From Flavobacteriales bacterium (GTDB taxonomy: Bacteria; Bacteroidota; Bacteroidia; Flavobacteriales_D; Sanyastnellaceae): a DNA stretch of 45,861 nt. Position 1 is the stretch's first letter. The number at the start of each line of letters is the position of its first letter. The position numbers were made by a program, and so were the translations under genes. The notes under the pieces are model-generated. The model saw nothing but the letters and a program-made list of their open reading frames with translations. It was not told the DNA's origin and did no database searches. This document shows, in pieces, positions 8,678-32,002 of this stretch. The stretch lies in contig JAIXWP010000107.1 of assembly GCA_027491215.1 (NCBI GenBank), forward strand, positions 1 to 45,861, given 5' to 3'.

Positions 8678-9103
8678 ATGGGCAAGATATCCTTTAATAG
8701 CGAAGATGTGGGCTTTAAAATGCCTCAAAAGTCGATTTACAAGGCCTGGATAGAGGCTGTAGCTCACTCCCATGGGAAAAAAGTGGGTGAAATATCCTAT
8801 ATCTTCTGTAGCGATGATTATTTGCTTGAAATGAACAAGCAGTATCTCCAACATGACTATTACACTGATATTATCACCTTCGATTACACAGAGGGGGAAA
8901 CAATCTCAGGAGATTTATTCATTAGTGTTGATCGTGTAAATGACAATGCAAGTGAGTTAGGCGTTTCTGCTGAAATTGAAATGCAACGTGTTGTAATTCA
9001 TGGAGTTCTGCATTTATGTGGGTTCAAAGACAAGGATTTTGAAGCTGAGCAAACCATGCGAAAAATGGAAGAAAATGCCCTCCAAATTTTCTCCAAAAAA
9101 TAG
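8678..9103 (+). CDS. ybeY: Endoribonuclease / rRNA maturation factor YbeY
   Basis: 141 residues with the YbeY plan: IFCSDDYLLEMNKQYLQHDYYTDIITFDY (the Asp-Ile-Ile-Thr-Phe core), ISGDLFIS, and the metal site HGVLHLCGFKDK. YbeY is a metal-dependent RNase involved in 16S rRNA 3'-end maturation and ribosome quality control. The usual third histidine (HGxxHLxGYDH) is replaced by Lys (GFKDK), a change I associate with Bacteroidota YbeY proteins. A near-consensus -7 box, GACCTTTG (8663-8670), ends 7 nt before the ATG. A parS site lies just downstream. Confidence 0.92.
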   Translation: MGKISFNSEDVGFKMPQKSIYKAWIEAVAHSHGKKVGEISYIFCSDDYLLEMNKQYLQHDYYTDIITFDYTEGETISGDLFISVDRVNDNASELGVSAEIEMQRVVIHGVLHLCGFKDKDFEAEQTMRKMEENALQIFSKK

Positions 9104-9113
9104 AAATTTTTAA

Positions 9114-9129
9114 TGTTCCACGTGAAACA
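9114..9129. promoter_or_regulatory. parS: parS centromere site (ParB binding), perfect consensus
   Basis: TGTTCCACGTGAAACA matches the bacterial chromosomal parS consensus (TGTTnCACGTGAAACA) at every fixed position. It fills the 34-bp gap between the ybeY stop and the mnmG start, ending 8 nt before the mnmG ATG. Chromosomal parS sites are normally origin-proximal and are bound by ParB for segregation. Bound ParB here could also influence mnmG expression (inference). Confidence 0.88.
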
Positions 9130-9137
9130 CTTTTTTT

Positions 9138-11009
9138 ATGTATCCTGAATACGATGTCATAGTAGTTGGTGCCGGACATGCCGGAAATGAGGCATCTGCC
9201 GCATCCGCACGTCTCGGAAAACGCACTCTTTTGATCACCATGGACATGAACAAAATCGGTCAAATGAGCTGCAATCCCGCCATGGGAGGAATAGCTAAAG
9301 GACAGATTGTTAGAGAGATAGATGCTCTTGGCGGATATAGTGGAATTGTCTCTGATAAGAGTGCAATTCAGTTCCGAATGCTTAATAGAAGCAAGGGTCC
9401 AGCCATGTGGAGCCCTCGTGCTCAAAATGACCGAATGCTTTTCGCTGAAGAATGGCGCCTTGCCCTCGAGTCCATTCCGCATTTAGATTTTTGGCAGGAC
9501 ATGGTGAGAGAAATCATCGTCGAAAACAACCGTGTCACAGGCGTTGTAACAGGCATGGGCATTACGTTTAAGGCCAAAGCAGTGGTTCTTACCAACGGCA
9601 CATTTCTCAACGGAATAATTCATATCGGAGAGAAACAATTTGGTGGCGGTCGAATTGGAGAAAAAAGAGCTGAAGGACTTACAGAACAGCTGATTTCATT
9701 AGGGTTTCGCTCAGGCCGCCTCAAGACAGGAACACCACCAAGAATTGATGGACGAAGCCTCGATTATTCGAAGATGGAAGAGCAACTTGGGGACGAAAAC
9801 CCTGAGAAATTCTCGTACACGGACACAAAAGCACTAACAAAACAACGCTCGTGCTGGATCACCTACACCAATCAAGACGTCCATGAAATCCTCCAAACAG
9901 GATTCGAGAAAAGCCCAATGTTTACAGGTAGGATACAGGGCGCTGGCCCACGTTACTGCCCTTCAATTGAAGATAAAATCAATCGATTTGCAGATAAGGA
10001 TCGACATCAAATATTCGTAGAGCCAGAAGGTTGGAATACCGTAGAGATTTATGTAAACGGCTTTTCTACAAGCTTGCCAGATGACGTGCAATACAAGGCT
10101 TTACGAATGATTCCTGGCTTCGAAAACGCGCTGATGTTCCGTCCTGGATATGCCATTGAATATGATTATTTTCCACCAGATCAACTCAAGCACACGCTTG
10201 AGTCCAAAGACGTTCAGAACCTTTTCTTTGCAGGCCAAATCAACGGTACTACTGGGTATGAAGAAGCCGCATGCCAAGGCTTGATTGCCGGCACAAATGC
10301 TGCGCTTAACCTACTCGATAAAGACCCCCTCGTGCTTCGCAGAGACCAAGCCTATATTGGTGTTTTGATTGATGATTTGATAACAAAAGGCACTGACGAA
10401 CCCTATAGAATGTTCACGTCACGCGCCGAATACAGAACCCTTTTGCGTCAGGATAATGCTGACGAAAGGCTCACGCCGCTTGCACATGCAATAGGCCTTG
10501 CCGATGATCATCGAATGCATAAAATTGAAACGAAGCTCAGTGGAAAAAACGCATTGATCAAGCATCTGGGCCAGCTTTCTGTGGAGCCAGAAGAAATAAA
10601 TTCTTTGCTCGAGGCAAATGGATCCAGCGCTACGACCCAAAAAGTAAAGGCGCTAACCCTTGTAAGCCGTCCCCAGCTTTCACTCGATGAGATCATAAAG
10701 GCTGTTCCTTCAATCAAAGAGTTTACCTCGCAATACGGTGAGTTGGAAAACGAAGTCATTCAACAAACCGAGATTCAAGTAAAATATGAAGGCTATTTGA
10801 GCAAAGAGCGAGAACTAGCGGACAAAATGAGTCGACTTGACCATGTGCCCCTTCCTGTTAACTACGACTATTCAAAGCTCACGAGCCTGAGCATGGAGGC
10901 GCGTTTAAAACTAGCCAAAATCCGACCTGAAACTTTAGGCCAGGCCTCAAGAATCAGTGGAGTTAATCCCAGCGACATCTCTATACTGCTTGTTCATCTC
11001 GGCAGATAG
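9138..11009 (+). CDS. mnmG: tRNA uridine-5-carboxymethylaminomethyl modification enzyme MnmG (GidA)
   Basis: 623 residues, the normal length. The FAD dinucleotide-binding motif [12 protein letters not shown] lies at residues ~9-20. The GidA signatures [41 protein letters not shown] and [20 protein letters not shown] are present, as is the C-terminal MnmE-binding helical domain ([49 protein letters not shown]). With MnmE it installs the cmnm5 group on U34 of several tRNAs. The start is the ATG 8 nt after the parS site. A terminator follows. Confidence 0.97.
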
Positions 11010-11207: not shown

Positions 11208-14200
11208 AACCGAAACTTCTTCTGATCATTTTTCTTGTGATCTCTGGTTTTGCCAGTAGATCTCAAGTCACCTTTCAGGCTCAGGCCACGGAAGGCTGCG
11301 CTCCGTTTGGAGTAGTGATCGATGTCACGCAGCCAAGCTCCGGAATTACCAGTTACAGCTGGACAATTACAACTCCTTCTGGTACGACTCTCACTGCAAC
11401 TAGCCCTCAGTACGTTTCGATTTTCAATAACCCTGGAACATATGATGTCAGCCTTACCATCAATGGATCACAGAATCAAACCATTCAAGATTACATTACC
11501 GTTTACGCAAAACCGATTGCTACTTTTTCTGTTGACGACAATACGGGATGCTTTCCGCATTGCGTTGAGTTTACAGACACAAGCATCCCTGGATCTGGTG
11601 CGATTGTAAACCGCACTTGGGATTTTGGAAATGGTTCCACGGGAAACGGGGCGGTTGTTTCGCATTGTTATGCTTCCGCAGGAACGTTCAGTCCGGTGCT
11701 TTCGATAGCTGATGAAAATGGTTGTTTTGCGAATATCACCATGCCGAATTTGATATCAGTAACTTCCAATTTTCCAACAGCGCTTTTTACTTCAAGCGCT
11801 TCTGTGACATGTAATGCACCGACACCGATTAGTTTCACAAATAGTTCCACGGGAAATTTGGACTTTGAAAGTGTCTGGACATTTGGTGATGGGGGCGGAA
11901 CTACTACTTCAGGTGCAACTAACCTTTCTCACACCTTCGCTTCACCAGGCGATTATGAGGTGTGTTTGGAAGTAATTGATGAGGAAAACTGTTCAGCATC
12001 CGTTTGCCATGATATCACCATTCTTGATGATCCAAATCCAAGTTTCACTGTAAGCGACAACGATGTTTGCACTGGACAAGCAGTGACATTTACAAATACA
12101 ACTACGCCCGCTCCATCTCAGGTGAAGTGGGATTTTGACAATAATGGAACTATTGATTCTTTCTCAAACGCACCATCGTTTGCTTACAGCGCTGCAGGTA
12201 CATATCAGCCTAAATTCATTGTGATTTATAGCCCGACATGTTCAGATACTTTGCAGAACATTAGTATCACTGTTCACCCAGGTATTACCGCAAGTATTTC
12301 AGCAAATGAAACTAGTAGTTGTAGCCCACCATTTAGTCCTATCATTTCAGCTACAGCGAGTGGTACCGGGCCCTTTACATACAACTGGATAGTAGCAAGC
12401 CAGCCAGGAGGAACTACTCCAGTAATCAATCCTACCTTCAATCAAAATGGATCCTATTCCGTTTCTGTTGTAGTCACTAACTCACAAGGGTGCACAGGAG
12501 CTGCTTCTCAAACAAACTACATTCAAGTAAGTACACCAAACGTATTCTTTTCTCATCAAGACATTGCTTGTTTTGGAGAAGAGGTAGAACCCACCAATAT
12601 TGCACTTTCAAACAACGATGCTATTGTTTCGTACTCTTGGGATTTTGATGGTGATGGCAGCGAAGATTCCAATGAAGCCAACCCCATTTATGTCTATAAT
12701 TCGCAAGGTGAATACTTCATTTCATTAACCGTAGAAACATCAGCTGGATGTATTACAACCTTCACTAGTCCAACACCGATTTTAGTACAAGCACCGCTCA
12801 GCACCAACTTTACAGCCAGCGCTCTAGTGAGCTGCGCCGGCGAAGCAATTGAGTATTGTATTCCGTCTGTAAATGGAAACACTTACAGCTGGAATTTCGA
12901 CGATGGGAGCGGATGGATTGTAATGAATCCAGAAGAGACTTGTATTGAACACATGTACGAAGACACCGGATATTTTGATGTGATGATCAGCATTGTCAAC
13001 GGTGCTTGTAATATCAGCGACACACTTGTCGACTACATCTATATCGAGCCTCCCGTAGCTCTTTTCGATTATTCTGTTGATTGCAACGATATGCTTACTG
13101 TTACAGTCGGCGATATGAGTATTGGTGCTGATGGATTAACGTGGGACTTTGGCGACGGAAGCGCGCCTGTCACTAACGTGGAAACATACACGCATACCTA
13201 TGCAGCATATGGTTCTTATGATATCACATTGACCGCTACGAGCGCGACAATGGGATGTCCAGATGATAAGATTAACAGCGTACAGCTCATACCACCATCC
13301 GCGGCGATCAGCTTTAGTCAGACAGTTGGTTGCGCGCCACTTTCGGTATTTCTTCAGGGAGAAAGAGTGAACCATCATTGGCATGTAAGTATTAGCAATG
13401 GCGATGAAATTACCGTTGATTGGAATCATGATCAACAACTTTGGAATACCACTTATAATCACGGTGGAGAGACCACCACATCACAACATACACTGAGTGG
13501 ATATTTCTGGCCAGAGTTGATTTTTCTTCAAGAGGGTTGTTATGATTTCACAGTAGATATTCTTAACGAATTTGGATGCGCGGCAACTGCGTTTTACGAT
13601 GATGCTGTATGTGTTACCGCGGGTACAGACTTCGCCACATTCACGCCTACCATCATTTCTAGTTGTGATTCTGTAACCGTGTCCTTTCTTGCGAATGCGA
13701 ACAATATTACAAGCTATCAATGGACTTTCAGTGATGGGGCAGGAACAACAACAACACAGCCTACTCATACATTTTTACCACCATACAATTACAATACTGG
13801 AATCACTGCAACACTAAACGCAACGAACACTTTTGGTTGCGAATCAACCGTGACACAAACCATTGATGTAGTGCTTCCAAGTATTCCACAATTCAATCCT
13901 GCAAGCAGTCCTATTTGCGAGGGTGGCAGCGTAGTCTTCACTAGCACCACACAAGGACCAGTAAATGTTTTCACGTGGAATTTCGGAGATGGAGAAATTA
14001 GTAATGATCAAAACCCCTCCCACAATTATTCTTCAAATGGAAATTATGAGGTTTGTCTTACAGTAGAAAACAGTGTTGGATGTGCGCGCACAAATTGCAT
14101 CGAAAATGCTGTAATCGTTGCAAACCCAGAAGTTGCTTTTACATACACTTCAGCTATTAACAACTGTTTATTTGGAGTCCAGTTAGAAAGCACTACTCCA

Positions 14201-20176: not shown

Positions 20177-23074
20177 CTATCCGCGTTTCTCAAAGTTAAT
20201 TAAAAAAGTTGTTCCCCCATCAGAAATCACCTGAATGGTGCCGTCGAGTTGCTCAGTAAGGGAATATACTAACTGAACGCCAAGGGAATCCGTTTTTTCA
20301 AACTTGAAGTTTTCTGGAAGGCCAACTCCATCGTCTTTTATTCTGAGTGTAACCATTCCGTCTTTCTCATTTAGATCAATCCACAGGCTACCTTCTGTTT
20401 TGTCTTTGTAAGCATATTTCAGAGCGTTGCTGACCAATTCATTTACGATAAGACCACAAGGAATCGCTTGGTCAATGCTCATTTCCACGACATCAATATT
20501 TGGAATAAAATTCACGTCGCAATTTTGCATGCGATAGCTCTGGATCAAATTATAGCTAAGGCTCTTGATGTATTCTGAGAAATTAATACTCGAGAAATCC
20601 GTAGTTCGGTAGAGCGTTTCGTGAATGAACGACATACTCTTAATGCGGTTTTGGCTCTCTTGTAAAATCTCAAGCGTGCCTTCGTCTGTGACGTAAGAAG
20701 ACTGAAGATTAAGGATGCTGGAAATTACTTGCAGGTTATTTTTCACGCGGTGGTGCACCTCTTGAAGCAGCACTTCTTTTTCTTTCAGTGAGTCACGAAT
20801 TTTTCGGTCAATTTCTCGGCGTTCGGTGTTATCATACACCAGGCAAGAGACCTCTTCCAATCTATCATCCAGGTAAACTGGATTTAAAAAAACCTGAAGC
20901 CAGATGATGTTGCTTTCAGCGTCTCTCAATGGAACCTCGAATTGCTGAGGCTTTCCGCTGAAAGCTTGGTCAAAGGAGGTGAGTTGTCCTTGATAAAAAT
21001 TCTCGTCTAAGTGTTGTCTAAGAATGGTGAGGATGTCACCGCCTGTTTCCATTTTTTCATGGAGGGTATTACTCAACCAACTCACCAGGTTATGATTCAT
21101 GGTGGTCACGCGATGGTCGCGATTCATCGTCCACATCATCATATTCTCTGTGGAGTTAAAAATCGATTCTAGTTTTGCACGTTGTTCCATTGCGCGGCGT
21201 TCGTTTGCACGAAACTCCGTGATATCTCTGGAAACACCCATGGATCCGATCACTCGGCCTTGTTCGTTTTTAATAAGAGATGCTGATAAAAAGCTTGTAA
21301 AAGTTTTTCCGGTATTCGTGATGTTCATCACCTCACCGCTGAATGTGCCTTTTTTAGAAAGCTCCATTCTCACTTTTTGATATTCTTCTAAATCAGCGAA
21401 AACGTTGGAAAGAGGGCTTCCAAGAATTTCATCCAGCCCTACTTCAAATTGCTGTTGAGAAGCGTTGTTAAACTCTGTAATTTTTCCCGCCACATCTACC
21501 GCGATGATCATATCCAGCGAGCTCTCGATGATATTTCGCGTGTAGTTTTTTTGTTCTTCTAAAAGTTGTTGTGTCTTCTTGTGTTCTTCAATTTCTCGTT
21601 TGAGAACAGTGTTGATTTCCTCGATAATTCTAACACGCATTTGTTCTTGAACGAGCTGCATTCTTTCACTGATATTATTCAGTGAAATTTGAATAGAGGG
21701 CTTGTTCTCGTAGATGGTTAGAGTAGATAACATTCCTACGTCGATTTCATTATCGTCGTCATCTTTGATTCGAATTTCCTTGTAATCTAGCTCCACACCT
21801 TCGCGCACAGCTGCGAGGTCTCGTTTTATTTCCGACTTAAAAATGGGTGGAATAAATTGTAGGAAATTCTTTTCGTAAATATCATCTTCGTCTTGAACCC
21901 CTAGGAGATTAAGCGCAACAGTGTTTGCGTACTTTACTTTTTCATCCGTTAGGATGATGATTGCGTTTGGTGAGTTCTCTAGCAAATTTCGGAATCGCAC
22001 TACCGTTTGTTCAAGTGTGAATTCCGCTTTTTTCCTAGCTGTGATATCATTCAATACAAACACTTGGACTTGTTCACCTTTGTAGTTGACGGCGCTTCCA
22101 GTGATGTCTAGGAAAAGTGGTTTTCCCGAGCGGTCGATCGTTCTAACTTCACCTTTGTTTGCTGAAGAAATTTCGATGCCTGATTCTATTCTATTTATGT
22201 CATCTTCAGTGATGAACTCAGAAAGTTTTCTGCCAGTAATATCGACGCGAGAGAAGTATCCAAAGAGGATTGCAAACTGGTCGTTTACATCGATGATTGT
22301 TCTATCTTTTTTGACAAAGACCACACTTTCATGTGAAACATTTGCGAGTGTTCGGAATCTCTCTTCGCTTTCCTGCGTAGCGATTTCAGCGTTTTTTTGT
22401 TCTGTAATATCTATGATAGTACCGCTGATGATTTTATTACCTGCCTCATCTTCTTCTAAGAAAGTATTTTCCAAACAAGTGATGATGATACCATCTTTTC
22501 TCTTCAATTTTATTTCGTAATTGACAAGAATTGGGTTCGCCTTTACATCACTTAGAAACTTTTCTCTATCTTCTTTATTTTGATAAAGGCTATATGCTGT
22601 GCGGGAAAGAAGATCAACGTCATCTTCATAGCCCAACATTTTTGCGAATGCTTTATTGCAAGAAATCAATCCCCCTTCATAATACGTTTTGTAAACTCCC
22701 GCTACATTTTTTTCAAAAAGCAGTTTGTATTGATCCGTGAGTGATCGTTCGTTTTGAGGAGAAATTCTTAGGAGAACAGCAGGTTTTTTTTTGACAATAA
22801 TTTTTGAGAAATATAGCCATTCATTCGGTATCCAATCTTTGATAATGATGTAGTCATTTTTGATGGTTTCTTGACAAGCAAGAAGCCACTTTTCATGTGG
22901 AACATCATTTCCTAAGATGTCAGTAATATCAATACCTTTAGAGGACTCGCTTTTGTATTTGTAGTAATTTTCAAACACACCATTAGCCTTCACCACTTTG
23001 CAAGAAGCGGGGTCGATGATTGCTAAAATATCGGAGGGATGATCTAATATCTCTTCGAGGGTAGGGTGGTGCAT
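20177..23074 (-). CDS. Soluble multi-PAS sensor histidine kinase (HisKA_2 type)
   Basis: 965 residues and no clear membrane segment, so probably cytoplasmic. About six PAS/PAC modules run from residue ~10 to ~740 (segments such as YKLLFEKNVAGVYKTYYEGG, FRTLANVSHESVVFVKKD, FRNLLENSPNAIIILTDEK, TRNIIESSLDMIIAVDV, LESIFNSTENMMMW). The transmitter follows: the HisKA_2 box EVHHRVKNNLQVISSILNLQ with His774/His775, then the GHKL ATPase with N box VNELVSNALKYAY (Asn878, Asn883) and DDGVGLPE. The ligand is unknown; PAS domains may bind haem, flavin or small molecules. The LytTR regulator follows 40 bp downstream and the MORN-repeat gene lies 24 bp upstream, suggesting one transcript. Confidence 0.93.
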   Translation of the reverse strand: MHHPTLEEILDHPSDILAIIDPASCKVVKANGVFENYYKYKSESSKGIDITDILGNDVPHEKWLLACQETIKNDYIIIKDWIPNEWLYFSKIIVKKKPAVLLRISPQNERSLTDQYKLLFEKNVAGVYKTYYEGGLISCNKAFAKMLGYEDDVDLLSRTAYSLYQNKEDREKFLSDVKANPILVNYEIKLKRKDGIIITCLENTFLEEDEAGNKIISGTIIDITEQKNAEIATQESEERFRTLANVSHESVVFVKKDRTIIDVNDQFAILFGYFSRVDITGRKLSEFITEDDINRIESGIEISSANKGEVRTIDRSGKPLFLDITGSAVNYKGEQVQVFVLNDITARKKAEFTLEQTVVRFRNLLENSPNAIIILTDEKVKYANTVALNLLGVQDEDDIYEKNFLQFIPPIFKSEIKRDLAAVREGVELDYKEIRIKDDDDNEIDVGMLSTLTIYENKPSIQISLNNISERMQLVQEQMRVRIIEEINTVLKREIEEHKKTQQLLEEQKNYTRNIIESSLDMIIAVDVAGKITEFNNASQQQFEVGLDEILGSPLSNVFADLEEYQKVRMELSKKGTFSGEVMNITNTGKTFTSFLSASLIKNEQGRVIGSMGVSRDITEFRANERRAMEQRAKLESIFNSTENMMMWTMNRDHRVTTMNHNLVSWLSNTLHEKMETGGDILTILRQHLDENFYQGQLTSFDQAFSGKPQQFEVPLRDAESNIIWLQVFLNPVYLDDRLEEVSCLVYDNTERREIDRKIRDSLKEKEVLLQEVHHRVKNNLQVISSILNLQSSYVTDEGTLEILQESQNRIKSMSFIHETLYRTTDFSSINFSEYIKSLSYNLIQSYRMQNCDVNFIPNIDVVEMSIDQAIPCGLIVNELVSNALKYAYKDKTEGSLWIDLNEKDGMVTLRIKDDGVGLPENFKFEKTDSLGVQLVYSLTEQLDGTIQVISDGGTTFLINFEKRG

Positions 23075-23098: not shown

Positions 23099-24610
23099 TT
23101 ATTGGTCTTCTTTGGGCTTGGGCAATTTTATTTTTTGTCCGTTAATTCTAACTGCTAATCCGGCTTCATACTCAATTGTGAGCTCCAAGGTTCCAATTTC
23201 ATCAAAATATTCCCACCTTCCTGATAGTTCGCCACCTTCGTATTTTCCTCTCATTCTAACATTTCCATTTCTATACCAGTACTTATGCTTCTCCACCGGT
23301 GTGCCCACTTGGTACTCGCCTTCGAATGCTTTTTGTCCATTATCATAATACCATACCCACAAGCCATTTCGCTCACCATCGAGGTACTCGCCTTCTTCGA
23401 TATGGTCATTTACCGATAACTTCCATTTGCCTGTTTTTAAGCCATCTATAAAATCTCCTTCATTGATAATATTTCCGATAGAATCATACTCTATTGCGTG
23501 CCCGTCTTCTTTGCCTTTGCGGTAATATTCATCTCTATGCATTCCTCCTGAAGCATGGAACCATTGCCAGTTTCCGATAGGTAAATCATCCTTATAGCTT
23601 CCTTTTTGTTCTATTTTGGAGTTGTTGAAATAGAACTGCCATGGACCGTCCTTTTTTCCATCTATATAGCTACCTGAGGCTCTAACTATTCCATCAGGAT
23701 AAAAGAGCTTCCAAAGGCCTTGTCTTCGGCCTATCGAGTCAATCATTCCTTCTCCAGTCTTTATTTCATTCTCATAGAGATATGCATTGATCTGGTTACC
23801 TTGTCTATCATACTCTCTGAAAGTGCCGTGTTTCTTATCGTTTCGATAGCTTCCTTCGAGTTTTACTTTTCCATCTTCATAGTATTCCTTTCGTATATCA
23901 ATCATGGCGTATTGTCCGCCATCATTAACAACCAGCTCCCCATTTTCATAATTTTCAATTCTTTCTAATTCCCCTTTTTTATTAAAGAATTTGAATATTC
24001 CATTTCTTAAGCCATTCGTCCAATTTCCTTCTTCTCGCACTACTCCATTCGGATGTAGGTCTTTCCAAATGCCTGATCTTTTATTGGAAGAATTGTAGCG
24101 ATTGATGAATTCTTCAGAATAGATGAATCCATTTCTGTAAACTGTATTTGTGATGATTCGCGCGTCTTCTGCGTATTCCACACCTTTACCCTCTTCCTTG
24201 TTATTTTCGAATGGAATAATCTTATGTATTTGTCCAGATAGGTAAAATGTTTTGCTTGGTCCGTTCTTTATGTTGTTGACAAACAGCACTTCTGAAAGAA
24301 TTTTACCTGCAGTATCAAAGAGTTGTTCGGGACCATTTTTCAAATTTTCCTTGTAGGTAATTATTCTTTCAAGGGTAGAGTCAGAGCGGTAGAATTTCCA
24401 GGTAGAATCTAACTGAAATTGTAATCTATTTCCTTCCGTTTTCAGGCCACCGTCATCATAATACGTTTTCCAGTAGCCATTTGGTTGTCCATTTTCCATC
24501 ATTCCTTCGCTGGAAATAGCTCCGCCCGGATAGTAATATTTTGTGTACTGTCCTTGAGCTTGAGCGACCAGAAGAATGAATGTTAACCATGTGGCAAAGA
24601 TGCACTTCAT
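23099..24610 (-). CDS. Exported MORN/YwqK-type repeat protein
   Basis: 503 residues. A signal peptide (FATWLTFILLVAQAQG) is followed by about 18-20 repeats of roughly 23 residues, pattern G-x-W-x-x-Y/F-x-x-D/N-G-x-x-x-x-E-G-x-Y/W (for example GYWKTYYDDGGLKTEG, GLWKLFYPDGIVRASGSY, GKWKLSVNDHIEEGEY, GLWVWYYDNGQKAFEGEY). These resemble MORN-variant repeats that some databases label 'toxin-antitoxin YwqK', a name that does not imply a toxin system here. The repeats should form an elongated beta-hairpin stack, probably in the periplasm or on the surface. The gene directly precedes the kinase/regulator pair on the same strand. Confidence 0.85.
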   Translation of the reverse strand: MKCIFATWLTFILLVAQAQGQYTKYYYPGGAISSEGMMENGQPNGYWKTYYDDGGLKTEGNRLQFQLDSTWKFYRSDSTLERIITYKENLKNGPEQLFDTAGKILSEVLFVNNIKNGPSKTFYLSGQIHKIIPFENNKEEGKGVEYAEDARIITNTVYRNGFIYSEEFINRYNSSNKRSGIWKDLHPNGVVREEGNWTNGLRNGIFKFFNKKGELERIENYENGELVVNDGGQYAMIDIRKEYYEDGKVKLEGSYRNDKKHGTFREYDRQGNQINAYLYENEIKTGEGMIDSIGRRQGLWKLFYPDGIVRASGSYIDGKKDGPWQFYFNNSKIEQKGSYKDDLPIGNWQWFHASGGMHRDEYYRKGKEDGHAIEYDSIGNIINEGDFIDGLKTGKWKLSVNDHIEEGEYLDGERNGLWVWYYDNGQKAFEGEYQVGTPVEKHKYWYRNGNVRMRGKYEGGELSGRWEYFDEIGTLELTIEYEAGLAVRINGQKIKLPKPKEDQ

Positions 24611-24626
24611 ATTTTCACGTGTAACG
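24611..24626. other. parS-like site at the left edge of the candidate origin
   Basis: ATTTTCACGTGTAACG keeps the TTnCACGTGnAA core plus the C at position 15; three of the 14 fixed parS positions differ. It begins right at the start codon side of the MORN gene. Confidence 0.4.
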
Positions 24627-25024
24627 TCTTTTTTACAAAGAGTATTTATATATTCTTTTTAAAGAAAAGTAGTAATTCTTAATAAGAGGTGTTAATTGAG
24701 TTTAAAAGTTTGTTCTTGGGTTGTTGCAAAATTAATCTTCACACATTTGATTCAATGTTGTAAACAAGTTTCTAGAATATGAAGAGAATGTAAATGAAAG
24801 GGTTAAATCTGATATTAACAACTTGTGTATATTCCTTTGTTCTGAAAAGTTTTTTGAAAAAATCAGTTCTAAAGTGTTCACAGCTGCGTTGGCAAAAGTT
24901 CCAATACTTTTAATAGCTATGTGTACAAGGGATGAAGTTTTTGTTAAGGCAGAGAAAAGCTGGAAAAAACAAATCTTTTTCTTAGAAACTTTTACACGGG
25001 AATTGACACACAAAGTGGTGTATA

Positions 25025-25033
25025 TGTGGATAA
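25025..25033 (-). other. DnaA box, perfect consensus
   Basis: TGTGGATAA is the exact complement of the DnaA box TTATCCACA. Two one-mismatch relatives lie in the same gap at 24824-24832 and 24920-24928. Confidence 0.55.
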
Positions 25034-25105
25034 CCACCTTAAGTAAATGGAAATGAGAGTATGTAGCTCTTTTATCCTTTGCTAATACCATTTGTAATAA
25101 GTTGA

Positions 25106-25121
25106 TTTTTCACGTGGAAGT
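25106..25121. other. parS-like site at the right edge of the candidate origin
   Basis: TTTTTCACGTGGAAGT keeps the TTnCACGTGnAA core of parS; positions 2, 15 and 16 differ. It lies 6 nt upstream of the rpiB -7 box, so binding there could also affect rpiB. Confidence 0.4.
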
Positions 25122-25127
25122 CTGATT

Positions 25128-25135
25128 TACTTTTG
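25128..25135 (+). promoter_or_regulatory. rpiB promoter -7 box
   Basis: TACTTTTG matches TAnnTTTG and ends 19 nt before the rpiB ATG. Confidence 0.55.
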
Positions 25136-25154
25136 TTTTACAATTAATACCCTT

Positions 25155-25583
25155 ATGACCATACACATCGGTTCAGATCATGCAGGCTTTGAGTTGAAAG
25201 AAAAAGTCAAAGCAATGTTACAACAACAAGGCCATACGATTCAAGATTATGGCACTCATTCTTTAGACAGTACTGATTACCCAGATTATGCACACAAAAC
25301 AGCTGAGGCTGTGGTGAGTTCAGGTGAATTAGGAATATTAATTTGTGGTTCTGCAAATGGTGTTTGCATGACAGCAAACAAACACGCTGGAATTAGAGCT
25401 GCCCTATGTTGGTTGAATGAAATTGCGGCATTGGCAAGACAGCACAATGATGCAAATATTATTTGTTTACCAGCACGATTTATTTCAGAAGAAAGTGCTT
25501 TTGAAATGGTTCACACATTTTTAAGTACTCCGTTCGAAGGCGGAAGACATGCGAATAGAGTCAATAAAATAAATTGTAACTAA
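25155..25583 (+). CDS. rpiB: Ribose-5-phosphate isomerase B
   Basis: 142 residues of the RpiB/LacAB family: IGSDHAGFELKEKV at the N-terminus, DYPDYAHKTA, catalytic-region Cys64 in ILICGSANGVCM, KHAGIRAALC, and His97 in ARQHNDANIICLPAR. It interconverts ribose-5-phosphate and ribulose-5-phosphate in the pentose phosphate pathway. The CGSANG loop in place of the enterobacterial CGTGIG form still has the active-site Cys. It is followed by an M28 peptidase gene after only 3 nt, so the two are probably cotranscribed. Confidence 0.95.
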   Translation: MTIHIGSDHAGFELKEKVKAMLQQQGHTIQDYGTHSLDSTDYPDYAHKTAEAVVSSGELGILICGSANGVCMTANKHAGIRAALCWLNEIAALARQHNDANIICLPARFISEESAFEMVHTFLSTPFEGGRHANRVNKINCN

Positions 25584-25586
25584 TCA

Positions 25587-27179
25587 ATGAAAAGAATACT
25601 TCAATTAGCACTTGCTATAAGTGCTGTTTTTCACGGGGAACAATTATTAGCTCAGGCTGATACATTAGCAATGAAATATGCTGAGACAATCACTCCTGCG
25701 GAATTGAAAGAACACTTGTACATTTTAGCAAGTGATGCTTATAAGGGAAGAGATACAGGATCTGAGGAGATGAGAATGGCCGCGGATTATCTAATTCAAC
25801 AGTATAAAAACATGGGTGTAGGTCCATGTAATAATGGAAGTTATAAGCAGGAATATCCTTTGAAGAAAGTTAAGATAGGCAGCTCTACGATTTCAGTTGG
25901 TAAGGGTACCTACACTTTCAAGAAGGATTATTATTCTTTTGGTGGATTTGATCAAGTGGATCTTTCTAATTTGAAAATTGTTTTTGCGGGATATGGAATT
26001 GAAACTGATAAGTACAATGATTACAATGGTGTTGATGTAAAAGATGCCATTGTGTTGTGCTTTATGGGAGAGCCTGTTGATGCTTCAGGAAACTCTATTT
26101 TCACGGGGAACAATACGATGAGTGAATGGAGTGATGACTTCAGAATGAAAAGAGATTTAGCAGCTAAAAAAGGAGCAAAAGCTATTCTTTATATTGAGCC
26201 AAACTTCGATTACATTTTGCAGCGTGTTGCTTATTTCTTGGATGAACCAAGAATGGCTTTAGATTATCCTAAGGGCAAGAATAGTGAGGAAGAAGTATTG
26301 CCTTATTTCTTCATTTCGCCTTCGATGGGAGATGCTATAATGAAGGCTGGAAAACAGAAAGGAGTTGAGGCTATCAAGAAGAAAATTAACGCAAAAAAAT
26401 CTCCGAAAAGTTCAGTGCTTAAAGTTAAAGGAAGCATCAAGCTCGTTTCAGAAAAACAGTCAATCCAAGCAGAAAATGTATTGTGTTTTATTGAAGGTTC
26501 AGATCCTGCGTTGAAAAAAGAAGTGGTAGTTGTTTCAGCACACTTTGATCACGTGGGGGAAATGAACGGTAAGATATATAATGGTGCTGATGATGACGGC
26601 TCTGGTACCGTTACAGCATTGGAAATTGCCGAGGCATTTCAAACAGCTAAGAAGGACGGAAATGGTCCGAAGAGAAGCGTGTTGGTTCTTCATGTTAGTG
26701 GAGAAGAAAAGGGTTTGTTGGGAAGTGAATGGTATTCAGAATATCCTATTTTTCCTTTAGAAAGTACCGTTTGCGATTTGAATATTGATATGATTGGACG
26801 TGTGGATGATCAACATAAGGACAACGAGAAATACGTCTATGTGATTGGATCGGATAAATTGAGCACGTCGCTTCATAGCATTTCAGAGGCTAGCAATAAG
26901 ACTTACACCCAATTGGAGTTGGACTATACTTATAACGACCCTAATGATCCGAATCGATTTTACTATCGTTCGGACCACTACAATTTTGCGAAGCACAATA
27001 TTCCTGTTATCTTTTATTTTAGTGGTGTTCACGAAGATTACCACCAACCAGGAGATGATCCAGAAAAGATTATGTATGAGAAAATGTCGACGATTGGACA
27101 TTTGATTTTCCACACAGCATGGGAGGTTGCGAATAGAGCAGAGCGCTTGGTGGTGGATGTAAAGAGTGATTTCGAGTAA
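25587..27179 (+). CDS. Exported M28-family metallopeptidase with PA-like insert
   Basis: 530 residues. A signal peptide (MKRILQLALAISAVFHGEQLLAQ) precedes an N-terminal region (residues ~30-270) that contains a PA-like domain (IVFAGYGIETDKYNDYNGVDVKDAIVLCFMG). The M28 zinc domain has the expected ligands: His319 in VSAHFDH, Asp336 in NGADDDGSG, the Glu373/Glu374 pair in SGEEKGLLGS, Asp in LNIDMIGRVD, and a late His in VHEDYHQPGDD. Such enzymes are aminopeptidases or Zn-dependent exopeptidases acting outside the cytoplasm. A 17-nt sequence, TTTTCACGGGGAACAAT, occurs twice in the gene in different reading frames (25628-25644 and 26098-26114). Confidence 0.92.
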   Translation: MKRILQLALAISAVFHGEQLLAQADTLAMKYAETITPAELKEHLYILASDAYKGRDTGSEEMRMAADYLIQQYKNMGVGPCNNGSYKQEYPLKKVKIGSSTISVGKGTYTFKKDYYSFGGFDQVDLSNLKIVFAGYGIETDKYNDYNGVDVKDAIVLCFMGEPVDASGNSIFTGNNTMSEWSDDFRMKRDLAAKKGAKAILYIEPNFDYILQRVAYFLDEPRMALDYPKGKNSEEEVLPYFFISPSMGDAIMKAGKQKGVEAIKKKINAKKSPKSSVLKVKGSIKLVSEKQSIQAENVLCFIEGSDPALKKEVVVVSAHFDHVGEMNGKIYNGADDDGSGTVTALEIAEAFQTAKKDGNGPKRSVLVLHVSGEEKGLLGSEWYSEYPIFPLESTVCDLNIDMIGRVDDQHKDNEKYVYVIGSDKLSTSLHSISEASNKTYTQLELDYTYNDPNDPNRFYYRSDHYNFAKHNIPVIFYFSGVHEDYHQPGDDPEKIMYEKMSTIGHLIFHTAWEVANRAERLVVDVKSDFE

Positions 27180-27236: not shown

Positions 27237-27247
27237 TGAATTAGCTA

Positions 27248-27868
27248 TTAGATGTTGTGATCTAGAGCTTGGCTTGTAGATTCAGTTTCCTTCATGCTGA
27301 ATGGAGGATAAGTATCTGTAAGGTTGTAGTAGTAAGCCATTACACGGTTTGACCAACGCATTACACCTACCATGTAGTCGTGCATGCCTTTTGGATATTT
27401 ACCAGTGATAAGCACTACCCACCAAGCAATCATTTTTACGAAAAGTGATCCTAGTGCGAGGAATAGAAGGCAGAATCCGTGAGGAATAAGGATGTAGATA
27501 AATCCGAAGAAGCTTCTTAGAAGAAGTTTTCCGCGGCTTGATCTTTCAGGATATTCCATTTCGAAAACAGTTTTATCATCAGAGGCATTGAGACCAAAAG
27601 CTGGATAGCCATCTGCTAGATTGTTGATACGAGCGCTCAAACGCCAGTTCCAACGCAACCATTTTACCATGTAATTCCACATTCCTTTTGGGTATTTGCC
27701 TGTGATAAGGATTGCCCAGAAAGCAATTAAATTGATAAACATCGCACCAATTTGGATAAACAACAACACAAACATGTGTGGAAGTTGAATGTAGAGAGCA
27801 CCAAATAATGTGCGCAGAAGTAGTTCGCCCCTAGAATAGGAGTCTTGATGAGTAACTTGAAATTTCAT
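27248..27868 (-). CDS. Duplicated DUF4389 membrane protein
   Basis: 206 residues made of two tandem copies of one ~95-residue unit. Each unit has SRGxLLLRxxFGxxYIxxPH, a two-pass hydrophobic region ending in ITGKYPKGM, then a WNWRLSARINNLADGYPAFG or WSNRVMAYYYNLTDTYPPFS motif. The first unit is residues ~5-100 and the second ~105-200, giving about four membrane segments. I recognise the unit as DUF4389, of unknown function. The tandem duplication within one chain is clear from the sequence. The gene stands alone and shares a terminator with the M28 gene. Confidence 0.85.
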   Translation of the reverse strand: MKFQVTHQDSYSRGELLLRTLFGALYIQLPHMFVLLFIQIGAMFINLIAFWAILITGKYPKGMWNYMVKWLRWNWRLSARINNLADGYPAFGLNASDDKTVFEMEYPERSSRGKLLLRSFFGFIYILIPHGFCLLFLALGSLFVKMIAWWVVLITGKYPKGMHDYMVGVMRWSNRVMAYYYNLTDTYPPFSMKETESTSQALDHNI

Positions 27869-31486: not shown

Positions 31487-32002
31487 TTATTTTTCAGGTT
31501 CGAACTCAAGAATCACGCTATTCATGCAAAAGCGTTTGTATGTGGGTGGTGGCCCATCATCGAAAATGTGACCGAGGTGTGCATCGCAACGACCGCATTT
31601 CACCTCTGTTCTGATCATATTGTGTGAAAAGTCATTTACATATGTGACACCATCTTTTCTAATTGCTTCGTAAAAACTAGGCCATCCGCAAGACGATGCA
31701 AATTTGGCATCGCTTTTAAAAAGAGCATTACCACAAGCTTTGCAGTAGTATGTTCCAAGCCCTTCGAAGTTCCAGTACTCTCCTGTGAACGCGCGCTCAG
31801 TTGCTGCTTTGCGCGCAACGAGATAAGTGTCTTCGTCAAGTATTGATTTCCACGTGGAATCGGGAAGAACAAGTTTTGTTGTATCCGTTCGTGAGTAGTA
31901 GGGATGATGGTCTGTTTGATTGGTCATTTTTAAATCGTTCTGAAAAGCTGAGGACACAATTAAAAGTATCCCCGCAATAAATCCTGCTATTGTGTACTTC
32001 AT
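31487..32002 (-). CDS. msrB: Peptide-methionine (R)-S-oxide reductase, exported
   Basis: 171 residues. The MsrB domain has the structural zinc Cys pairs Cys87/Cys90 (YCKACG) and Cys136/Cys139 (CGRCDAHLGH), the conserved CGWPSF segment with Cys105, and catalytic Cys159 in KRFCMNSVIL. It reduces methionine-R-sulfoxide in proteins. The N-terminal 20 residues form a hydrophobic signal (IAGFIAGILLIVSSAF), so this copy repairs proteins outside the cytoplasm. A parS-like palindrome lies inside the gene (31846-31861). Confidence 0.95.
   Translation of the reverse strand: MKYTIAGFIAGILLIVSSAFQNDLKMTNQTDHHPYYSRTDTTKLVLPDSTWKSILDEDTYLVARKAATERAFTGEYWNFEGLGTYYCKACGNALFKSDAKFASSCGWPSFYEAIRKDGVTYVNDFSHNMIRTEVKCGRCDAHLGHIFDDGPPPTYKRFCMNSVILEFEPEK
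31846..31861. other. parS-like site inside msrB
   Basis: ATTTCCACGTGGAATC keeps the TTnCACGTGnAA core and is symmetric over TTCCACGTGGAA; the outer positions differ from parS. Confidence 0.35.

Follow-up and report, generated by a model that had tools for sequence, protein, structure and literature searches.

The window analysed here is the whole of contig C18 (45,861 bp), one of 150 contigs of a 3.17-Mb genome. Its longest internal non-coding gap, as ranked on ORFs of at least 100 aa, is a 544-bp stretch at 24611-25154 between two divergent genes, a MORN-repeat gene on the left (ORF 23099-24610, minus strand) and rpiB on the right (ORF 25155-25583, plus strand); the runner-up, 1933-2220, contains a tRNA-Cys. 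The gap is 70.6% AT compared to 58.3% for the window, confirming the AT-rich, divergently flanked element that the original prediction had put forward as a candidate replication origin. Genes of the T9SS (PorP/SprF, Por_Secre_tail) are also encoded; they agree with a place in Bacteroidota, and the genome was assigned to the order Flavobacteriales, probably to the family Crocinitomicaceae. A 119-aa ORF inside the gap (24732-25091, minus strand) is unlikely to be a gene, having no Pfam match and two in-frame stops in the congener L015. A second congener, L012, retains the open reading (41% identity over 105 aa, E 4e-16), a similarity that conserved non-coding DNA could explain. The features of the gap and its surroundings are collected in Table 1.

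Table 1. Features in and around the rpiB gap, in window coordinates.
Feature	Position	Strand	Remarks
oriC candidate, non-coding gap	24611-25154	.	between divergent MORN-repeat gene and rpiB
MORN_2-repeat protein, 503 aa	23099-24610	-	left flank gene
rpiB (LacAB_rpiB, PF02502)	25155-25583	+	right flank gene
Candidate DNA unwinding element	24628-24687	.	least stable 60-bp duplex in the 45.9-kb window; contains TCTTTTTAA
Conserved 96-bp DnaA-box module	24734-24829	+	PWM trained without own genus; model R1
DnaA-like box 1 of module, TTGTAAACA	24758-24766	+	genus-conserved; 54 bp ahead of box 2
DnaA-like box 2 of module, ATATTAACA	24812-24820	+	genus alignment; 54-bp spacing
Weak DnaA-like box, ATATACACA	24824-24832	-	TTATNMACA with one mismatch; out of register in two congeners
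Weak DnaA-like box, TTGTACACA	24920-24928	-	not in register in two congeners
Perfect DnaA box, TTATCCACA	25025-25033	-	TTATTCACA at the same place in two congeners
parS-like site 1, TTTTCACGTGTAAC	24612-24625	.	same sequence, in register, in three species of the genus
parS-like site 2, TTTTCACGTGGAAG	25107-25120	.	conserved in genus
parS, GTTCCACGTGAAAC	9115-9128	.	between ybeY and mnmG; the genome's only zero-mismatch place for KTTYCACGTGRAAM
parS-like site	11634-11647	.	one mismatch
parS-like site	13968-13981	.	one mismatch
parS-like site	22890-22903	.	one mismatch
parS-like site	25628-25641	.	inside M28 peptidase gene; about the same place in two congeners
parS-like site	26098-26111	.	inside M28 peptidase gene; about the same place in two congeners
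parS-like site	31847-31860	.	one mismatch

The perfect DnaA box that had been reported was located on the minus strand in the right half of the gap. The two accompanying one-mismatch boxes, ATATACACA and TTGTACACA, stand only when scored against the relaxed TTATNCACA; measured against TTATCCACA they fail, and no second box within one mismatch of TTATCCACA is present in the gap. Across the window, TTATCCACA-type boxes within one mismatch are not enriched either (15 versus 13.5 expected), because the boxes here follow a looser consensus than the E. coli type. The gap holds one canonical DnaA box and five others that fall only within one mismatch of the relaxed consensus. Across three species of the genus, parS1, TCTTTTTAA, both boxes of the module, the 25025 box and parS2 are all in register.

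The module itself was recognized by models from which the window's genus had been excluded. A PWM built from 16 gaps, all outside the genus, scored 30.8 at the module, whereas no other place in the window exceeded 3.5; in 56 other 20-kb stretches of the genomes G013 and G038 it reached 11.6 at best. The sequence-only model R1 was built from 13 rows (alignment A3), obtained by removing four weakly anchored rows from a gappy alignment of 17 modules (A2), again leaving out the window's genus. R1 matched 24738-24827 with 28.2 bits (E 5e-6), and the next match in the whole genome had E 0.16, both E-values being rough. The sole significant R1 match in 3.17 Mb thus falls in the gap.

The least stable duplexes of the window, by nearest-neighbour stability, overlap the gap at every length considered, with the 100-bp minimum at 24609-24708 and the 200-bp minimum at 24632-24831 in addition to the 60-bp minimum of Table 1. 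Such low stability is expected of an oriC and points to a predicted unwinding element at the left end of the gap. The original prediction had also placed dnaA outside the window, and it was found on contig C88, where domain IV of the encoded protein aligns with solved DnaA chains. A dnaA gene away from the origin is the Bacteroidetes-type arrangement and was seen in relatives as well: dnaA and rpiB are 1.65 Mb apart in G013, 0.46 Mb apart in G038 and on separate contigs in G039 and G049. In G013, dnaA and parB lie about 13 kb from each other (C1 1970574-1984174), some 1.65 Mb from the origin; this proximity was not seen in G038.

The MORN(-)/gap/rpiB(+) arrangement recurs in the order, yielding 36 distinct gaps including that of the window. 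TTATNMACA occurs 55 times in these gaps compared to 5.8 expected, with a maximum of 13 in 200 shuffle sets; it is present in 26 of the 36 and absent from the other 10. TTATNNACA occurs 62 times versus 10.6 expected, and five rearranged control patterns occur 6-11 times versus 10-13.7 expected. The homologous gaps as a set therefore carry the cluster of DnaA boxes expected of an oriC, the window's own contribution being its canonical box, the five weaker ones and the module. Two plus-strand boxes exactly 54 bp apart, one mismatch allowed, are found in 13/36 gaps, a number that includes three own-genus gaps and two near-identical pairs; in 100 shuffle sets no spacing was reached more than four times. 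This spacing was first noticed in data that included own-genus sequences, and with the own-genus gaps set aside it remains in 10/33, the two near-identical pairs still counted. There are hints of further boxes near -21 and +11 around the 54-bp pair.

The reach of the module was assessed with R1 in 150 genomes of the order. At E 0.1, 118 genomes gave a match, mostly weak, and most of these weak matches are probably due to chance. At E 1e-4 or better there were 15, with the window's family accounting for 13. All but one of the 15 are located upstream of rpiB, the exception being that of G089, in which rpiB was not placed; of these 14, eight had been used to train R1 and another two are close kin of training rows. 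Even within the window's own family, R1 failed to match at E 0.1 in at least 20 genomes, and many gaps, those of G038 and G039 among them, carry only a weak module or none. In G105 the best R1 match is 1.1 Mb away from rpiB; the 1.3-kb gap regions of G105 and G107 contain five and three TTATNMACA boxes, respectively. One locus of Brumimicrobium salinarum (L111) reached a module PWM score of 40.0, 421 bp upstream of rpiB. An nhmmer profile made from the window's genus found a strong match in only one gap outside it (L014). This distribution indicates that the rpiB gap is order-wide, while the 54-bp module belongs to part of one family with outliers.

Two other elements of the gap were conserved. 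TCTTTTTAA at 24654-24662 is present in 14/36 gaps, mostly close to the left end of the gap. An inverted repeat, TGTAAAAGTTT/AAACTTTTACA, pairing 24700-24711 with 24986-24997, is largely kept in the genus. Possible roles for both include unwinding, a promoter or a site for another protein.

Divergent flanking genes raise the question of whether the gap is merely a long promoter region serving both genes, MORN and rpiB, its DnaA and parS matches having arisen by chance. Upstream of rpiB, TACTTTTG at 25128-25135 fits TAnnTTTG, which we take to be the Bacteroidota -7 promoter element, and it is kept within the genus. We nevertheless consider a promoter region alone very improbable, as it leaves unexplained the enrichment of boxes alongside silent control patterns and the genome-unique module match, as well as the parS clustering and skew minimum described below. 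The gap may well be a promoter region in addition. The putative -7 element directly adjoins parS2, so that rpiB transcription and ParB loading could interfere.

GC skew was also examined. The base counts on which the original prediction had relied (34 G/65 C at 23101-23340 and 54 G/45 C at 27241-27480) were exact, and the flip from C-rich to G-rich is real in the window; it is noisy, and the window alone does not fix its point. The cumulative skew of the window reaches its lowest value at 1207 and a local minimum near 24.5 kb. A strand-corrected change-point analysis gave a plateau spanning about 16.8-27 kb; support peaked at 17.9 kb, 7 kb left of the gap (46.1 versus 35.3 at the gap). Since the genome is in 150 contigs, the cumulative-skew check that had been proposed was carried out on relatives, and it favoured the gap. 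In G002, of the same genus, the minimum on the 152,917-bp contig C33 is at 85473, and the homologous gap (85561-86102) begins 88 bp to its right; the V statistic of this contig was reached by 0/2000 shuffles of 1-kb blocks. In G013 (4.10 Mb) and G038 (3.98 Mb), sampled at 20 kb every 200-205 kb, skew turns from negative to positive at rpiB, with a few stray signs elsewhere. Within 180- and 200-kb surroundings, the local minimum lies 13.7 kb right of rpiB, beyond mnmG, in G013 and about 0.6 kb left of rpiB in G038 (the offset is nearer -564, the G038 record beginning inside the MORN gene with 26 bases missing at its start). G105 and G107, from another family, show the same switch in sampled skew at the rpiB gap, and stray signs occur far from it. 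All four single-contig genomes, which represent three families, place the sign change at rpiB or close by, within sampling resolution. After correction for gene strand and removal of duplicate loci, third-position skew in 18 relatives was higher right of the gap than left of it in 12/13 usable cases for plus-strand genes and 16/17 for minus-strand genes. A raw left/right skew count (20/21 loci with MORN context versus 12/59 others) was dropped on account of duplicate loci and confounding by gene orientation.

A true oriC located nearby, most likely beside mnmG, is what published predictions would suggest: Ori-Finder put oriC at or beside mnmG in two Flavobacteriaceae (PMC11278836, PMC12843772, in the passages on the origin). 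In the window, the zero-mismatch parS abuts mnmG and the change-point peak falls between mnmG and the gap, and the local skew minimum of G013 is to the right of mnmG. However, mnmG of G002 (70284-72155) is 13 kb from the skew minimum of that contig, the gap that follows mnmG in the window is only 191 bp, and the low PWM scores outside the rpiB gap extend to this neighbourhood. The position of mnmG relative to rpiB also varies. In the window its end lies 13.6 kb to the left of the gap, and G002, L099 and L136 also have it left of rpiB, but it is on the right in 12/14 other loci with mnmG seen, out of 28 stretches examined for relatives' loci; wherever both genes were seen they are 5-17 kb apart. 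This indicates that mnmG moves from one side to the other and the gap keeps coinciding with the sign change, the right-minus-left skew across the rpiB gap remaining positive. Placing the origin at mnmG is thus a reading to which we assign little probability. The side switching involves ybeY-mnmG (8678-11009 in the window; loci L122, L130, L131, L136 and L099), with parS staying beside mnmG, and probably reflects inversions spanning the origin.

The parS-like site claimed for each end of the gap was found at both. In the window, GTTTCACGTGAAAC within 3 mismatches occurs 14 times compared to 2.9 expected, a number reached in 0/100 shuffles. Within one mismatch, KTTYCACGTGRAAM has 15 places genome-wide, nine of them on C18, which makes up 1.4% of the assembly (binomial P about 1e-13, assuming an even spread); at two mismatches the genome-wide count is barely above that of a reversed control (172 versus 139). 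Sites matching the 9115 parS are present at the start of mnmG in G013, G038 and G002. With one mismatch allowed, GTTTCACGTGGAAC lies 5-17 kb from rpiB at 3/4 places in G013, 2/4 in G038 and 2/3 in G039, and both places in G049 are about 35 kb from rpiB. No KTTYCACGTGRAAM place within one mismatch was found in the 20-kb stretches around rpiB of G105 and G107. Each of the four genomes searched for ParB, our own included, gave one match above the cut-off, and parB of the window's genome is on C52, not on C18. Palindromic sites clustered near the origin and an encoded chromosomal ParB, both expected of a ParABS centromere, are therefore present. The pair of parS-like sites in the M28 peptidase gene is 470 bp apart and shares a variant core, CACGGGGAA. 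That the locus is solely a ParB-loading centromere, with replication starting elsewhere, is exceedingly improbable: the parS cluster is the strongest single signal of the window and such clusters can be offset from oriC, but DnaA boxes, duplex instability and the skew minimum coincide in or at the gap, and the more distant parS sites of G049 suggest that the two functions are separable.

Taken together, the skew of relatives, the clustering of parS, the in-register module, the instability of the duplex and the remoteness of dnaA uphold the candidate origin, and we predict with high confidence from sequence that the gap at 24611-25154 is oriC, the chromosomal replication origin. The sites, their conservation, the relatives' skew minimum and the duplex instability can be read directly from the DNA. 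By analogy with established knowledge of DnaA and ParABS, DnaA encoded on C88 would bind the 25025 box and the spaced boxes at 24758 and 24812 and oligomerise, nucleating at the strong box and then filling the weaker, phased ones. DnaA would then open the weakest, AT-rich duplex at about 24610-24710, helicase would be loaded at the opened DNA, and forks would depart in both directions, each moving the way its flanking gene, MORN or rpiB, is transcribed. Segregation would follow from ParB binding to parS, both at the two oriC edges and at sites as far as about 16 kb from it, making the new origins separable.

An oriC distant from dnaA is common in Bacteroidetes, as stated with reference to DoriC in the report on Prevotella intermedia OMA14 (PMC4755523), whose origin, according to the relevant passages, likewise contains several DnaA boxes and sits at a skew transition remote from dnaA. 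Those passages name no gene neighbours, whereas both an address at rpiB/MORN and a box pair with 54-bp spacing were found across the relatives studied here. The predicted Flavobacteriaceae origins at mnmG come from the same order and probably from the same neighbourhood as the rpiB gap, differing in that the site here is in the rpiB gap itself, with mnmG switching sides. Bacteroidota origins are easily misassigned because dnaA is elsewhere; in the parts of PMC11278836 that concern the origin, the text has mnmG marking oriC, a figure legend labels mnmG as ter, and the Mariniflexile sequence was started at dnaA, at odds with its skew. Among gut bacteria with parS/ori domains in Hi-C data, including Bacteroides caecimuris, the passages concerned describe ori as marked by a parS cluster and skew and as not systematically at dnaA (PMC10197239); the parS-like sites here differ in lying at both edges of the origin gap itself. 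The Escherichia coli oriC, as outlined in part of PMC4285127, resembles the gap in combining high-affinity boxes and weaker arrays of fixed orientation and spacing beside an unwinding element, and orientation and spacing matter there. The box arrangement here is different and the consensus, TTATNMACA, looser, and we do not claim homology.

An oriC in the rpiB gap is ordinary in kind, well evidenced and useful. Bacteroidota origins away from dnaA were already known; in the literature searched we found neither the rpiB gap as an origin address nor the 54-bp module in print (DoriC may hold a prediction), nothing on rpiB together with the origin in flavobacteria, and no origin biochemistry for Flavobacteriales. 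More broadly, we propose, as an idea that could equally prove right or wrong, that the MORN/rpiB gap is the ancestral location of oriC and has been retained by Flavobacteriales. Part of one family, probably Crocinitomicaceae, and a few outliers would possess a DnaA-oligomerisation module of their own. It would consist of two boxes facing the same way at a distance of exactly 54 bp (about five helical turns), together with the hinted boxes near -21/+11, and its reader would be a DnaA that accepts a looser box (TTATNMACA). For the window's genus, parS sites would form part of oriC at either edge, and a single 544-bp element would serve initiation as well as ParB loading. The rpiB/MORN address and the searchable box module would allow oriC to be placed directly in the order and genomes and MAGs to be oriented, and would serve coverage-based estimates of growth rate and tests of DnaA-box spacing.
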